From: Pyrococcus furiosus DSM 3638
Lineage (GTDB): Archaea > Methanobacteriota_B > Thermococci > Thermococcales > Thermococcaceae
DNA length: 64,000 nucleotides
Reading direction: 5' to 3'
Assembly: GCF_000007305.1 (NCBI RefSeq)
Contig: NC_003413.1
Coordinates: 1,483,318-1,547,317, forward strand
Shown here: piece after piece, positions 57,199-63,476 of the stretch
Position numbering within the stretch: the first letter of the stretch is position 1
Layout of the letters: every line of letters starts with the position of its first letter
Position numbers and translations under genes: made by a program
Notes under the pieces: model-generated
Databases searched by the model: none
Seen by the model: only the letters and a program-made list of their open reading frames with translations
Told to the model about the DNA's origin: nothing

Positions 57199-58924
57199 CT
57201 CAACACTTTTTCTCATCAAAAGATTCATCGGAGAAGTAACTAGGCAGAAGAAAATACTTGGAATAATACTCCTTTCAATAATAGGATTAACGTTAACAAA
57301 CTTAGCTTCTCCCTACATTTTAAGAATTATAATTGACGAATACCTTGTCCCTAGGAAGCTGGAAGGCCTGGGGTTTATTACAGCACTGTACCTTTTAACG
57401 TTGATAGGCCAGTGGGCGTTTATGACTCTCCAAACCTACTACATTGAGGTATTTGGTCAAAGAGTGCTGAGAGAGTTAAGGAGTAAATTGCATGAAAAAA
57501 TGTTAATCTCCAACCTTGATTTTTTTAAGAACAAATCTACGGGAGATTTAGTTTCTAGAATAATAAATGATACTAATATGGTAAATGATGTCTTGGTTTC
57601 AGGACTTTTGAGCGGGGTTAGTAGCATTCTAAGCCTGTCTGGAATAATCATAGCGATGTTCCTACTAGATGTTAGACTGACACTCGTAACATTGACAAGC
57701 GTCCCATTAATGGTAGCTATAGCCCTTTACTTTGGAGGAAAGATGAGAAGAGCTTATAGGGAGACGAGAGAGAAAATAGCAAGGATATCAACCATAGTAG
57801 AAGAAAGCGTTGCTGGTATTGAAACCATAAAGGCATTTGGAAAAGAAAGGGATGTAGAGAAGGACTTTTCCCTCGCATCAATAGAAACTATAAAGGCTTA
57901 CCTCAGAGTTGCTGTATATATGGGTATCTTCTGGCCTCTAATGAACATAACTAGCCTACTTTCAGTTATAATTGTCATAGCCTACGGAGGATATTTAGCG
58001 TATAAGGGAGCCGTAAGCATAGGTGTTGTAGTTGCCTTCATTCAGTATGCCCAGAGATTTAGAGGACCAATTAATAACGTCGTAAGTATGTATGACAGCT
58101 TACAGTCTGCATTAGCGGCATTAGAGAGAATATATGAAATTTTAGACGATGAAAACGTTGAAGATTACAAAGGAATTAACGTTGAAAGATTAACTGGAGA
58201 AATAAAATTTGAAAACGTGTGGTTTGAATACGAAAAAGGAATACCCGTATTAAAGAACATTAACCTCCATATTTCACCTGGAAGCAAAGTTGCAATAGTT
58301 GGAAAGACTGGAGCAGGAAAAACAACTATGATTAACCTAATTTTAAGATTCTACGATCCTAATCAGGGAAGAATTCTCTACGACGGCATTGAAGGAAGAA
58401 AAATAAGTAGAGAAAGCCTTAGGAAGAGGATTGGATATGTCCCCCAAGAGACGTATCTCTTCCCAGGAACCATTATGGAAAATATTCTAATAGGAAATCC
58501 GGAAGCAAAAGAAGAAGATGTAGTTAGGATATGCAAAGAGCTTGGAATCCATGATTTCATAATGAAACTTCCCAATGGGTATGAAACTACGGCAGGAGAA
58601 GCTGGAAAGTTGTTGTCAGTAGGAGAGAGACAACTAATTTCCATAGCAAGGGCTCTCCTAAAAGATCCAGATATTGTTATTCTAGATGAGGCCCTCTCTA
58701 GTGTAGATCCTAAAACCGAAAGTCTTGTACAACGGGCAATGTTAAAGCTTATGGAGGGAAGAACAAGCATAATAATTGCCCATCGCTTGACAATAACGCA
58801 GTATGCAGACAAAATTGTAGTTCTCGAGGATGGAAAAATCGTGGAAGAGGGTAGCCCTCAAGAGTTACTTGAGAAAAGAGGATACTTCTACACCTTATAC
58901 ACCACCCAGGTTGAGGAAATCTAA
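57188..58924 (+). CDS. ABC exporter partner subunit
   Basis: 578 residues: six membrane helices and an ATPase domain with Walker A GKTGAGKTT and intact Walker B ILDEALSSVD, but a variant signature LSVGERQ in place of LSGGQ. Together with the 55453 subunit it gives one working and one non-working ATP site, as in bacterial heterodimeric exporters. ATG 57188 after GGTGAG. The 3' end overlaps a convergent nitroreductase gene by 4 bp. Confidence 0.9.
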   Translation: MESNSTLFLIKRFIGEVTRQKKILGIILLSIIGLTLTNLASPYILRIIIDEYLVPRKLEGLGFITALYLLTLIGQWAFMTLQTYYIEVFGQRVLRELRSKLHEKMLISNLDFFKNKSTGDLVSRIINDTNMVNDVLVSGLLSGVSSILSLSGIIIAMFLLDVRLTLVTLTSVPLMVAIALYFGGKMRRAYRETREKIARISTIVEESVAGIETIKAFGKERDVEKDFSLASIETIKAYLRVAVYMGIFWPLMNITSLLSVIIVIAYGGYLAYKGAVSIGVVVAFIQYAQRFRGPINNVVSMYDSLQSALAALERIYEILDDENVEDYKGINVERLTGEIKFENVWFEYEKGIPVLKNINLHISPGSKVAIVGKTGAGKTTMINLILRFYDPNQGRILYDGIEGRKISRESLRKRIGYVPQETYLFPGTIMENILIGNPEAKEEDVVRICKELGIHDFIMKLPNGYETTAGEAGKLLSVGERQLISIARALLKDPDIVILDEALSSVDPKTESLVQRAMLKLMEGRTSIIIAHRLTITQYADKIVVLEDGKIVEEGSPQELLEKRGYFYTLYTTQVEEI

Positions 58925-59484
58925 AACTTGTTAAAGGAAACAACTTCTTCAATACTTTTCCTCTTTAGCTTTGGCTTCGGATCATCTGGGTATCCTACTG
59001 GGAGTATTACCTGAAGCCTCCATTCCCTGGGAACTTGAAGAAGTTCTTCTATTGGCCGTGTATTTGGAGGAGTGTAGGTAACTGTTCCAAGTTCTACCTC
59101 TTCTAAGGCTAAAAGGAAGTATCCCACAGCAATCCAAACTGATTGAAGCCAATAAGGAGCTTTCGTATATCCAAATACCAATACTAAATACGGAGCCTCT
59201 GTTAGAAAAGGTTTTTCTGGAGTGAATTCATTCTCCACTAACCATTCTTTCAACTCCCCCTTAATTCTCTCATAGAATTTTTCCTCCTCTACTTCACATA
59301 CTTCTCTTATTCTGGCCTTTAATTCCGGATTGTCAATTACTACAAATTTCCAAGGTTGAGCGTTCATTCCACTAGGAGCTTCTTTGGCTGTCTCAATCGC
59401 CTTGAAAACTAATTCAATTGGAGGTCTATCCTTCGAAAATTTCCTCACTGTTTTTCTTCGCTTTGCAAGCTCTAGTACCCTCAT
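58921..59484 (-). CDS. Nitroreductase-family flavoprotein
   Basis: 187 residues. The FMN-binding start RRKTVRKFSKDRPP and the central SGMNAQPWKFVVIDNP are family signatures; a C-terminal KPKLKRKSIEEVV segment is typical. It is likely an FMN- and NAD(P)H-dependent reductase; substrate unknown. The gene starts at ATG 59484, about 120 bp before the his leader, and divergent from it. Confidence 0.88.
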   Translation of the reverse strand: MRVLELAKRRKTVRKFSKDRPPIELVFKAIETAKEAPSGMNAQPWKFVVIDNPELKARIREVCEVEEEKFYERIKGELKEWLVENEFTPEKPFLTEAPYLVLVFGYTKAPYWLQSVWIAVGYFLLALEEVELGTVTYTPPNTRPIEELLQVPREWRLQVILPVGYPDDPKPKLKRKSIEEVVSFNKF

Positions 59485-59565
59485 GGGAGTAGCTTGAGAT
59501 ATTGTAAAATATAAACCTTACCAAACGTAAAATTTCTTGTCAAAAATTCATAAAAGCAACCATTA

Positions 59566-59576
59566 AATTTATTAAG
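59566..59576 (+). promoter_or_regulatory. TATA-like box for the his operon
   Basis: AATTTATTAAG sits 30-40 bp before the leader ATG at 59606, so transcription would begin near 59598-59603. The mRNA would thus start with the leader peptide. A second TATA-like TCATAAAAG lies near 59549-59557. Confidence 0.45.
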
Positions 59577-59605
59577 GTACTAAAGAAGTCTAAGTGGTTT
59601 TGACC

Positions 59606-59644
59606 ATGCTAGCCTTTGCATACCTACACCTTCATCATCATTGA
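59606..59644 (+). CDS. Histidine-rich leader peptide (MLAFAYLHLHHH)
   Basis: A 12-codon frame with TGA at 59642-59644. Four of the last five codons are His. It is the first frame after the his promoter and 41 bp before hisZ. Such a run of His codons directly upstream of a his operon matches bacterial hisL by function, not by sequence. It lacks a clear Shine-Dalgarno, fitting a leaderless message. Confidence 0.7.
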   Translation: MLAFAYLHLHHH

Positions 59645-59680
59645 TCTCTATTCTCTCTTCACTTGGTTAGTTGGAGGTGT
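59626..59680 (+). promoter_or_regulatory. Leader-to-Shine-Dalgarno pairing (candidate translational attenuator)
   Basis: ACACCTTCA (59626-59634), which includes leader His codons, can pair over 9 bp with TGGAGGTGT (59672-59680), the hisZ Shine-Dalgarno, with one G-U pair and a 37-nt loop. A ribosome stalled at the His codons would prevent the pairing and free the site. A pyrimidine tract (TCTCTATTCTCTCTTC, 59645-59660) lies in the loop. Confidence 0.6.
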
Positions 59681-59685
59681 TTTCT

Positions 59686-60567
59686 ATGTGGGCTAAGAGA
59701 AGCATGGAGGAGTATATTAAAATTGCTGAAATTGCAAACAAGCTTCGCTCGATTTTTCAACTCTGGGGATATAAAGAAGTGGTATTTCCAATTATCGAGG
59801 AATACTCACCTGAAATTAGAAAAGGAACAAAATTTGCCTATAATAACTTGTTCTATCTAATCTCCCCAGACGTCACATCAAGAATAATAAAACAGTTCAA
59901 AGACGGAAATGCAAAGGTATTCTACATAGCAGAGGTCCTAAATGGTGATGTTAAGGGAGAATGGCAGGCTGGAATAGAGTTCATTGGAGGAAAAGGTCTG
60001 GGAATGTATCTTGAAGCTCTTTCGATAGCAATAACATCCCTAGAAAGTCTTGGAATTACAGAATTCTACATCGACATTGGAAGCATTGAGGTTTGGAAAG
60101 AACTAAGCGGAGAATACTGGCCCAAAATAAAAGAAGCCCTAATAAAGCGAAACTTTGAGATAATAGAAAATATTCCAATTCCCAAGGACAAAAAAGACAA
60201 GATGTGGGAGTTATTTAATTTTAGGGGAAGAAGAAGTGGAATAGAAAAATTAGACACTATAGTTGATTCCATAGAGGATCCAAGGGTGTTTATAGACCTA
60301 GGAACTGTTCGTCCACTTCCCTACTATACCGACATAATATTCGAAATATACTCTCCCCAGGTAGGAAAACCAATAGGGGGAGGAGGAGAATATGAGGTTA
60401 GAGGAAAGCAGGCGATTGGCTTCGTTTTCTACTTAAATAGGTTGCTAAGTCTTTACAGACCGAAAGATAGGGCAAGAAAAGTTATTTCTGAAATAGATCC
60501 TAAGAAAGCATATTCCACAGCTAGAGAAATGGTGAGACTAGGAATTCCAGTGGAGGTGAGGTTATGA
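59686..60567 (+). CDS. hisZ: ATP phosphoribosyltransferase regulatory subunit HisZ
   Basis: 293 residues, related to histidyl-tRNA synthetase catalytic core. [23 protein letters not shown] and [22 protein letters not shown] match HisZ, which lacks aminoacylation but activates the short HisG. ATG 59686 has GGAGGTG upstream. First gene of the his operon; its stop overlaps hisG by 4 bp. HisZ is uncommon in archaea. Confidence 0.88.
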
Positions 60568-61178
60568 GGTTTGTTTTACCAAAGGGAAGGCTTTACCAAG
60601 ATTCGATAAAAGTACTAGAACTCGCTGGAATAAAAGTTCCAAAGAGAGACGAAAGAGCTCTAATCTGGGGGGATGGAAATAACGAATTCCTTTTAGCTAG
60701 AGCGTTTGACGTTCCCGTTTATGTTGAACATGGAATTGATATAGGAATAGCGGGGAGTGATGTAGTAGAAGAGAGAGGAAGTGACGTGTTTATCCCCCTG
60801 GAACTACCTTTCGGAAAATGCAGGTTAAGTATAGCTGTCCCCAAGGAGAAAGTTGTAGACCCAGAAAATATGGATGGTTACAAGATTGCAACAAAATATC
60901 CCAACATAACAAAGAGGTACTTTGAAAATCTCAATATTGAAGTTGAAGTGATAAAACTCCACGGAAGTATAGAGCTAGCTCCAAGAATAGGAATAGCTGA
61001 TGCAATAGTTGACATAGTGGAAACAGGAAATACATTAAGATCAAATGGACTCGTTGAAGTTGCAAAGATAATGGATGTTTCAGCGCTCCTCTTAGTAAAT
61101 CGCATTTCTCAAAAGATGTTCTTTGAAGAAATTAATTCTTTCATAACAAAAATTAGGAGGTCTGTTTATGGACATTGA
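60564..61178 (+). CDS. hisG: ATP phosphoribosyltransferase catalytic subunit (short form)
   Basis: 204 residues, the HisZ-dependent form without the C-terminal regulatory domain. [22 protein letters not shown] and the PRPP motif [17 protein letters not shown] are visible. It catalyses the first step of histidine synthesis. Its end overlaps hisD by 11 bp. Confidence 0.96.
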
Positions 61179-62295
61179 AGAATACGTCAGGGAGATTTTG
61201 AAAGATATCCGGGAAAGAGGATTAGAGGCAATAAGAGAGTACTCAAAAAAATTCGACGGATATGAAGGCCCATTTGAAGTCTCAAAGGAGGAGTTTAAGG
61301 AAGCTGAAGAAAGAATTCCAGAAAGGGATAAAGAAATTATAAAGAGAACTCTCAAGAGAATTGAGAAATACCATAGAAAACAACTAAAGCAGGACATTTT
61401 ATACATCGAGAATGGCTCTCTCTATGGGCTAATATACAAGCCACTCAAGAGAATAGGGATATATGTCCCAGGTGGGAAACCGCTGCCTTCAACTCTAATG
61501 ATGGTAGGAGTCCCCGCAAGGGTCGCTGGAGTTAAGGAAATCGTTGTAACAAACCCACCCAAAGATGGGAAAGTAAATCCATACATCCTGTACATAGCAA
61601 AACTCCTCAAGATTGAAGAAGTATACAAGCTCGGAGGAATTCAGGCAATAGCTGCCATGGCTTATGGTATTGGAATGAAAAAGGTCCAAAAGATCTTTGG
61701 GCCTGGGAATAAGTTTGTCAATGAAGCAAAGAGACAAGTTTTTGGAATTGTCGGGATAGACAGTTTGGCTGGCCCTTCTGAAATAGCAGTAATTGCAGAT
61801 GAAAGTGCGGATAAAGATTTCGTTCTTTACGATTTGTTAAGCCAATTAGAACACGGAAAAGATAGCAAGGCATGGTTATTGACGACGTCAAAAGAACTAG
61901 CAGATTACTGTAATAGAGAGGGAATAACAGTTATCGTGTGTAGCTCTCTTGAGGAATGCTGTAAGAAAGCTAATGAAATAGCTCCAGAACACCTTGAGAT
62001 AATAACTAGAGAACCCCTAAAATTGGTAGACTTAATTGAAAATGCAGGTGCGATATACCTAGGGCTATACACACCAGTTCCTGCAGCTGACTACTTCTTA
62101 GGAGTTAATCACGTTCTCCCAACGGGAGGTGCGGCAAAATTCATGGGTGTTCTCACAGTTTGGGACTTCATGAAGCCAATAAGCATTGCAATGGTTAGTA
62201 GAGAGGAGTTTATCTCTGAAAGAGAGCTGGGAATAAGATTAGCTGAAATAGAAGGAATAGAACTCCACAAAAAGAGCTTGGAGGTTAGAAAATGA
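61168..62295 (+). CDS. hisD: Histidinol dehydrogenase
   Basis: 375 residues. [18 protein letters not shown] and [18 protein letters not shown] are the family's signature regions, with His ligands near SQLEHG. It performs the last two steps, histidinol to histidine, with zinc and NAD. AGGAGG precedes ATG 61168. Confidence 0.96.
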
Positions 62296-62361
62296 GAAAG
62301 AAGGCTAATCATTGTGAAATCAACTGTGTAATTAAAGATACCTTTTATTGGGGTGAAGAAA

Positions 62362-62892
62362 GTGAGGAGAACTACAAAAGAAACGGATATAATTGTAGAA
62401 ATCGGGAAAAAAGGAGAAATAAAGACAAATGACTTAATCCTAGATCACATGCTTACTGCCTTTGCATTTTATCTAGGAAAGGACATGAGGATCACGGCAA
62501 CGTATGACTTGAGGCACCACTTATGGGAAGATATTGGAATAACCCTTGGAGAAGCGCTTAGAGAGAATCTTCCAGAAAAGTTCACAAGGTTTGGGAATGC
62601 AATAATGCCAATGGACGATGCTCTTGTCTTAGTTTCAGTGGACATTTCAAATAGACCCTATGCAAATGTGGATGTAAACATAAAAGATGCAGAAGAAGGA
62701 TTCGCAGTTTCTCTCCTAAAAGAATTTGTTTGGGGGCTCGCTCGCGGACTTAGAGCTACGATCCACATAAAACAACTAAGCGGTGAAAATGCCCACCATA
62801 TAGTAGAGGCCGCATTTAAGGGGCTTGGAATGGCTCTGAGAGTAGCAACTAAAGAGAGTGAGAGAGTTGAAAGCACAAAGGGGGTATTGTAA
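62362..62892 (+). CDS. hisB: Imidazoleglycerol-phosphate dehydratase
   Basis: 176 residues. The metal motif reads HHLWED in place of HHTVED, and the second one HHIVEAAFKG is intact. Both are variants known in archaea. Removes water to give imidazole acetol phosphate. GTG 62362 is chosen since GGGGTG precedes it; GTG 62353 is an alternative. A 66-bp gap separates it from hisD. It overlaps hisH as TAATG. Confidence 0.9.
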   Translation: MRRTTKETDIIVEIGKKGEIKTNDLILDHMLTAFAFYLGKDMRITATYDLRHHLWEDIGITLGEALRENLPEKFTRFGNAIMPMDDALVLVSVDISNRPYANVDVNIKDAEEGFAVSLLKEFVWGLARGLRATIHIKQLSGENAHHIVEAAFKGLGMALRVATKESERVESTKGVL

Positions 62893-63476
62893 TGGATAGA
62901 ATTGCAATAGTCGACCTAGGAATTGGTAATCTAGCAAACGTAAAGAAGGCCCTAAAAGGATATATAACTAGCGATCCTTACGAGATAGAGAAAGCAGACA
63001 AAATTGTTCTTCCCGGGGTTGGCAATTTCGGGGCCGTGGTGGACAAACTCGCCCCAATAAAAGATATAATCATTGAGGGAATAAACGAGGGAAAGCCCTT
63101 CCTGGGAATATGTCTTGGAATGCAACTTCTTTTCGAGGAAAGTGAAGAAAGCCCAGGAAAAGAGGGACTTGGAATATTCAAAGGAAAAGTTGTGAAACTA
63201 AAAAATGTAAGAACCCCACATATTGGCTGGAACCAGGTGTGGATAAAGAAGGAATGCAAGCTCTTTGAGGGGCTAAAGAATGGCAGCTATTTTTACTTTG
63301 TTCACTCCTATCATGCCGTCCCACAAGACCCCGATATAATAGCAACAACTACAGACTATGAAAATGCAGAGTTTGTCTCCTCAGTATGCTTTGAAAACAT
63401 ATTTGGCGTCCAGTTCCACCCAGAAAAGAGTAGCAAAAATGGTCTTATACTCCTAAGAAACTTTAGGAGGTTATAA
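62892..63476 (+). CDS. hisH: Imidazole glycerol phosphate synthase glutaminase subunit
   Basis: 194 residues. The class I amidotransferase triad is visible: GICLGMQLLFE (Cys near residue 77), and FHPEKS with the His and Glu near 175-180. It feeds ammonia to HisF. Overlaps hisB by one base. Confidence 0.96.
   Translation: MDRIAIVDLGIGNLANVKKALKGYITSDPYEIEKADKIVLPGVGNFGAVVDKLAPIKDIIIEGINEGKPFLGICLGMQLLFEESEESPGKEGLGIFKGKVVKLKNVRTPHIGWNQVWIKKECKLFEGLKNGSYFYFVHSYHAVPQDPDIIATTTDYENAEFVSSVCFENIFGVQFHPEKSSKNGLILLRNFRRL

Follow-up and report, generated by a model that had tools for sequence, protein, structure and literature searches.

The his operon of Pyrococcus furiosus DSM 3638 raises the question of whether an archaeon can couple the expression of its histidine genes to the charging of tRNA-His through a short translated leader. 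Control by amino-acid leader peptides is textbook knowledge for bacteria, as in the hisL attenuator of E. coli and Salmonella, whose leader peptide carries seven His codons. In the stretch of DNA analysed here (64,000 nucleotides, referred to as the window), a first-pass annotation had pointed to a 12-codon frame with four His among its last five codons, placed 41 nt ahead of hisZ, and had proposed that the His-codon region closes the hisZ Shine-Dalgarno (SD) region in a helix that a waiting ribosome would open. The frame is real, as is the 41-nt spacer between its stop and the hisZ ATG (Table 1), and comparison among relatives lends good support to an apparent archaeal histidine leader peptide ahead of the his operon; the helix between His codons and SD, in contrast, does not hold as a general switch.

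Table 1. Features of the leader region and the his operon in the window
Feature	Position	Strand	Remarks
Nitroreductase-family gene	58921..59484	-	Upstream of the leader, on the opposite strand
TATA-like box TTTATTAA	59568..59575	+	Read by eye; centre about 35 nt 5' of the leader ATG
Histidine leader frame MLAFAYLHLHHH, followed by its stop	59606..59644	+	Same position and type of frame in 47 relatives
Anti-SD arm ACACCTTCA of the first-pass annotation	59626..59634	+	Specific to the window
His-codon tail CAC CTT CAT CAT CAT	59627..59641	+	
CTATTCT, conserved in-frame element after the His run	59648..59654	+	Here behind TGA TCT
hisZ Shine-Dalgarno region TGGAGGTGT	59672..59680	+	Core GGAGGTG at 59673-59679
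hisZ	59686..60567	+	First structural gene; hisZ-like by PF13393 match, E 1.8e-26
hisG	60564..61178	+	PF01634
hisD	61168..62295	+	PF00815
hisB (IGP dehydratase)	62353..62892	+	PF00475
hisH-like glutamine amidotransferase	62892..63476	+	PF00117

The codons of the window leader read ATG CTA GCC TTT GCA TAC CTA CAC CTT CAT CAT CAT TGA. Within the window CATCATCATTGA occurs a single time, against 0.02 occurrences expected, and only three frame ends on the two strands carry at least three His among their last five codons, the leader being the sole one of the three that starts with an ATG. Across six other Thermococcaceae loci (L001-L006, 53,258 bases), five of the six such His-rich ends are the hisZ leader. 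A search of a plasmid collection gave no match. The closest PDB chains of the nitroreductase-family gene on the other side of the leader are named iodotyrosine deiodinase (6pz0, E 2e-68).

A search for hisZ in 94 Thermococcaceae genomes returned 46 full-length matches and one fragment (in genome G095), and the DNA upstream of these 47 relatives (L116-L162) was compared together with that of three loci from outside the Thermococcaceae (L163-L165). The conservation check that the first-pass annotation had called for comes out in its favour, with a His run near the stop in all 47 relatives while the other residues drift. Counting the window, all 48 frames before hisZ hold two to four consecutive His codons at most six codons from the stop, a count for which the best candidate run within 200 nt was taken and which thus favours weak cases such as L117. 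The run lies directly at the stop in 35 of the 48, precedes the stop by one to three codons in 12 and by six in one (L127), and consists of two codons in 23 genomes, three in 24 and four in one. Leaders are 23-34 codons long in 44 of the 48 (full range 12-40), and the spacer to hisZ measures 24-80 nt. Typical ends, each closed by the stop, are LVSYCHHH, LVSYYHHH, LVSYRHH, VSPCHHHLF, DYCHHRLF, LRVSLHH and DSLHHPF, while the nearest relatives of the window end in YRLHCHH (L116) and VMIFHHI (L117, the weakest match); the complete leader of L122, from genome G033, reads MVERSIKSRVLSMGASLLFKVTYCHHLF before its stop.

The association with hisZ is also seen when the genomes are searched by pattern. 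The pattern TGANYTAYNNYCATCATY has 34 matches in the 94 genomes, 32 of them before hisZ, and CATCATTGACNNTTCT has 30 matches across 29 genomes, 29 of them before hisZ; neither matched in the 47 of 94 genomes without hisZ, and each pattern captures only part of the 47 leaders (32 for the first, 29 for the second), so that diverged leaders elsewhere could be missed. All three off-target matches fall in genomes that carry hisZ: the one in G014 was rejected as a leader because it lies antisense inside an open reading frame, and those in G040 and G046, likewise rejected, fall within stretches filled with open reading frames. The hisZ loci L163-L165 outside the Thermococcaceae had no His leader, nor was there a His-rich frame end on the strand of hisG at 17 hisG loci (from 17 of 60 genomes of the phylum of G009), where three such ends were found, every one opposite to hisG. 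Rfam returned no match at gathering thresholds for the 12 of the 47 relatives' loci that were submitted. Half of the Thermococcaceae genomes (47 of 94) have no true hisZ match, some of the assemblies possibly being incomplete, and the his genes thus seem patchy in this family. The hisZ proteins themselves are nearly free of His, with 22 His codons over the 51 hisZ bodies counted, at least one of which (L162) is cut off by its contig.

By sequence criteria, namely an ATG, an SD-like match and a TATA-like match, the leader appears translatable. In a scripted scan the best-scoring TATA-like sequence stood 35-49 nt 5' of the leader ATG in 41 of the 48 genomes; for the window a tie-break picked TTCATAAA at 55 nt and so placed it among the other seven. 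The match covers at least six of eight positions in 38 of the 48. The presence of such a box ahead of the leader speaks against a transcription start downstream of 59644, and given its nearness the leader would begin only a short way into the mRNA. A passage of a study of primary transcription start sites in P. furiosus gives a median 5' UTR of 13 nt (PMC6640164). An ATG, picked by eye in each genome 12-40 codons before the stop, was found for all 48 leaders, and 40 of them have an SD-like match of at least 4 nt ahead of it. The window and L116 are without a clear leader SD, and the window leader itself would be nearly leaderless.

The best explanation of this arrangement, which we consider probable, is that the frame encodes a histidine leader peptide through which the charging of tRNA-His is sensed, by ribosome-mediated attenuation with a translational output. 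Its first part taken alone, a codon-level sensor of histidyl-tRNA ahead of the his operon, is highly probable. When charged tRNA-His is scarce, the ribosome on the leader would wait on the His codons, and in most Thermococcus an internal GGTGA, spaced for that position, may prolong the wait. The waiting ribosome would occupy the leader RNA with which the hisZ SD pairs in its absence, allowing hisZ and the rest of the operon to be translated, which is the least certain of the steps. With ample histidine the ribosome would complete the leader and depart, and the hisZ SD could then close.

The internal SD-like element is GGTGA or a variant of 4-6 nt, and in 35 of the 48 genomes it stands at a fixed register, 9 nt 5' of the first His codon. 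From GGTGA to the codon preceding the first His codon the distance is 6 nt, close to the spacing of the hisZ SDs (mostly 5-6 nt) and to that at many leader starts. The internal SD would therefore sit at initiation spacing for a ribosome whose A site is occupied by the first His codon. GGTGA may in this way lengthen the wait of the ribosome on the His codons, though the same bases could instead form a small hairpin with those codons. Thirteen of the 48 leaders lack an internal SD at the usual register. Eight of these (the window, L116, L138, L146, L152, L156, L157 and L159) have no internal match of 4 nt; in the other five the sequence is either GAGG, placed two bases nearer (four leaders), or TGAT (L117).

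The translational step was followed through the pairing of the hisZ SD. In the window the helix proposed at first pass, a 9-bp pairing of ACACCTTCA with TGGAGGTGT that includes one G-U, is present and lies at the heart of the strongest duplex that a scan of the leader region gave for this SD (-14.2 kcal/mol at 37 C). The free-state probability that the window SD is unpaired is 0.00, compared with 0.13 (sd 0.12) when the upstream sequence is shuffled, and masking of a stalled ribosome lifts it only to 0.16. As a general mechanism the same helix fails, since the complementarity to the SD peaks at other positions in the relatives. The 48 genomes were sorted by eye, according to their tails, into groups A-H, the members of a group being related and hence not independent. 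At 37 and 65 C none of these eight groups had its SD on average clearly more deeply buried than with shuffled upstream sequence (mean z from -0.5 to +0.8). A masked ribosome freed the SD by more than 0.2 in two of the 48 genomes at 37 C and in six at 65 C, and folding at 85 C gave 0 to -5.4 kcal/mol, with many values of 0, among the sequences listed.

Complementarity to the SD has two peaks in the relatives, the first (anti-SD1, CYYUUCUGG-like) about 20 nt before the His run and the second (anti-SD2, CUNUUCUG) immediately 3' of it. Anti-SD1 is strong in group E, at -17.8 against -9.6 (sd 2.4) for shuffles, and fair in group C, at -15.1 against -11.4 (sd 3.2); anti-SD2 is very strong in the nine genomes of group C, at -18.4 against -8.9 (sd 2.6). 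Neither element clearly exceeds the shuffles in groups A, D, G and H. A scan of pairing registers placed anti-SD1 with the SD as the top register in all four sets tested, with 81% of weighted cells over the 48 genomes (z 3.8 among 1080 registers) and 91% in groups B and C, and the value observed was reached in 81 of 5000 clade permutations of the SDs. In the comparison of L151 with L152 a C-G to U-A change affects both sides of the pairing. Anti-SD2 was rejected as a family-wide element, being strong in group C only and matched in 3593 of 5000 clade permutations. A shared RNA fold of leader and spacer was likewise discarded, RNAalifold having found no long-range structure in the region from tail to start in group B; the structure that it found in group C is strong and its core invariant. 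No site resembling an intrinsic terminator was seen at 59400-59800 of the window. Control of the SD through anti-SD1 thus has modest support, and an SD-release switch at hisZ is possible but unproven; release of the SD is preferred as the controlled step because the scanned part of the window has no terminator-like site and anti-SD1 has some support. A fuller version, which we put forward only tentatively and regard as clearly less likely to be right than wrong, would have the internal GGTGA park the ribosome so that the first His codon occupies the A site, while copies of the anti-SD (CYNUUCUG) flanking the His codons lock the start of hisZ unless the ribosome waits, with no terminator hairpin involved. 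If true, Archaea would sense tRNA charging by a leader peptide with a stalling point set by base pairing between ribosome and mRNA.

Behind the His run lies a further conserved element. A TTCT in the phase of the His codons is found within 16 nt 3' of the run in all 48 genomes, compared with 31 of 1352 control windows, at a distance of 3-9 nt. The codon ahead of it is Leu in 43 of the 48, even with a TGA in between; where others have this TGA, L127 has TGC and L151 and L152 have CGT. The CTN TTC that follows TGA in frame also brought stop-codon recoding to notice as a candidate. The TTCT may be anti-SD2, a site for a factor, an RNA element, the context of a leaky stop or the remnant of a longer ancestral frame. 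Its presence within reach of a ribosome at the leader end in every genome, and the finding that SD burial is not general, are points in favour of the same leader sensor having a transcriptional output, in which the waiting ribosome would shield CTNTTCT or keep the termination factor aCPSF1/FttA away from the nascent RNA, so that polymerase reads into hisZ; after normal termination on the leader the naked spacer would leave polymerase open to premature termination, in the manner of the E. coli tna operon. Factor-dependent termination through aCPSF1/FttA, which may compete with ribosomes, is discussed in one paper (PMC8116511). Against such an output, the spacer has no structure common to the groups, the part of the window scanned has no terminator-like site, and spacers of only 24-42 nt, as found in nine of the 48 genomes, offer little room. 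This transcriptional version is rather unlikely, and the translational one is kept as the preferred reading.

A different possibility is that the tail is a binding site in RNA (or DNA) whose bases read as His codons by accident, the frame being incidental. The tail is indeed conserved at the nucleotide level too, from GGTGAGCTACYGCCATCAT to TGACTSTTCT, and in many genomes a similar element of CTTCTG type stands 5' of the His codons in a different frame. In all 48 genomes, however, the frame itself extends uninterrupted back to an ATG, with little else conserved in it. Upstream of the His run it continues without a stop through 20 codons or more in 47 of the 48, the sole exception being the short window leader, compared with 0 and 12 of the 48 in the other two frames, one of which is closed by the conserved GGTGA itself, so that the control is biased for that frame. 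Further points against a mere binding site are that the His runs vary by whole codons (two, three or four), that the Pyrococcus-like group keeps the His codons while losing the flanking bases (YLHLHHH in the window and YRLHCHH in L116, both at the stop), and that the range of leader lengths, 12-40 codons, makes the distance of such a site from the promoter-like box vary. We consider this account improbable. The choice of codon in the tails is itself uneven, with 119 CAT to 6 CAC, compared with 4 CAT and 18 CAC in the hisZ bodies; long open reading frames have 34 CAT and 94 CAC in L001-L006, and 128 CAT and 126 CAC in the window, so that the CAT of the tails runs against the usual preference in these Thermococcus but not in the window.

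Whether the peptide itself matters can be judged from its drift. Before the last six codons, 18 pairs of leaders differ at codon positions 1, 2 and 3 by 46, 50 and 49 bases, with 21 synonymous to 56 nonsynonymous single changes; three of these pairs are too diverged for a sure ungapped alignment, and the 15 closest pairs that remain give the same outcome (24, 29 and 32 differences; 18 to 36). The even spread over codon positions and these synonymous and nonsynonymous counts indicate that the residues of the peptide are little constrained. Differences are modestly fewer in the six codons that immediately precede the His run, at 26 over 108 codons compared with 145 over 388 earlier. Sensing of free histidine inside the ribosome by a nascent-chain arrest peptide, in place of a sensor at the codons, would fit the V-S-Y-(C/R/Y) that stands fairly constant ahead of the His run in many genomes, but these residues vary by group (AYLHL in the window, RDSL in L153, VSPC in L118) and the single changes in those last six codons are 5 synonymous to 12 nonsynonymous in the 18 pairs, leaving such a peptide very improbable. 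A chance His-rich frame, which the window taken alone or the weak match of L117 might suggest, is already refuted by conservation, given a His leader in all 47 hisZ relatives and a single ATG-started case in the 64 kb of the window, and its likelihood is negligible.

By analogy, a Trp leader was sought upstream of trpC and rejected, as no Trp-rich frame end directly upstream is held in common (15 of the 94 genomes have a trpC match over the cut-off). Two of these loci, L169 and L174, share a frame end RGGWW before a stop (GGTGGGTGGTGGTGA) about 950 nt upstream of trpC, at about 490-552 on the plus strand of L174 and on the other strand in L169, with an in-frame ATG, 16 codons earlier, in L174 only. 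The core GGTGGTGGTGA is absent from the other 13 trpC loci, and the shared end is possibly due to chance or to a small frame ending in Trp.

Among the matches listed in a search of open-licence papers, no description of an archaeal amino-acid leader peptide was found. Two statements point the other way in a general fashion: a tool paper says that attenuation by upstream frames occurs in archaea too (PMC10219788), and a paper on Methanothermobacter mentions ilvBCD attenuation while citing work on bacterial producers (PMC13158618). Another paper names the histidine genes Tk0244-Tk0250 of T. kodakarensis as one co-regulated operon (PMC12827226). The Thermococcaceae provide a family-wide, codon-level case with which the question becomes directly testable and, if the leader acts as proposed, hyperthermophiles would use ribosome-based sensing of an amino acid.

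Several known systems resemble this leader in part. Attenuation of the E. coli his type, a variant that sequesters the ribosome-binding site and His leader peptides of Firmicutes are described in passages of one paper (PMC9413887). The Firmicutes attenuators, as those passages give them, resemble the leaders described here in having a short frame with 3-5 His codons before his operons, and differ in their predicted terminator and antiterminator hairpins, of which none were seen here. With hisL the leader shares a short frame that lies directly ahead of the his operon and has a run of His codons close to its end and, as proposed here, the use of a stalled ribosome to sense charged tRNA-His; it differs in being archaeal, in having two to four His codons, mostly CAT, in its 24-80 nt spacer to hisZ, in lacking a fold common to the groups and, in the part of the window scanned, a terminator-like site, and in carrying an internal SD and CTNTTCT. 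The tnaC/Rho attenuator of E. coli offers a parallel in the possible shielding of RNA just 3' of the leader stop, although no constraint of the arrest-peptide kind was seen here; to our knowledge Rho is absent in archaea, where aCPSF1/FttA may be an analogue. The ermC and cat leaders are translational attenuators with a sequestered ribosome-binding site. Sequestration of the SD is modestly supported and clade-dependent in the present case, and the signal would be an amino acid where theirs is a drug, yet the step proposed for the his operon of the Thermococcaceae is like theirs: a waiting ribosome would free the SD of the next gene.
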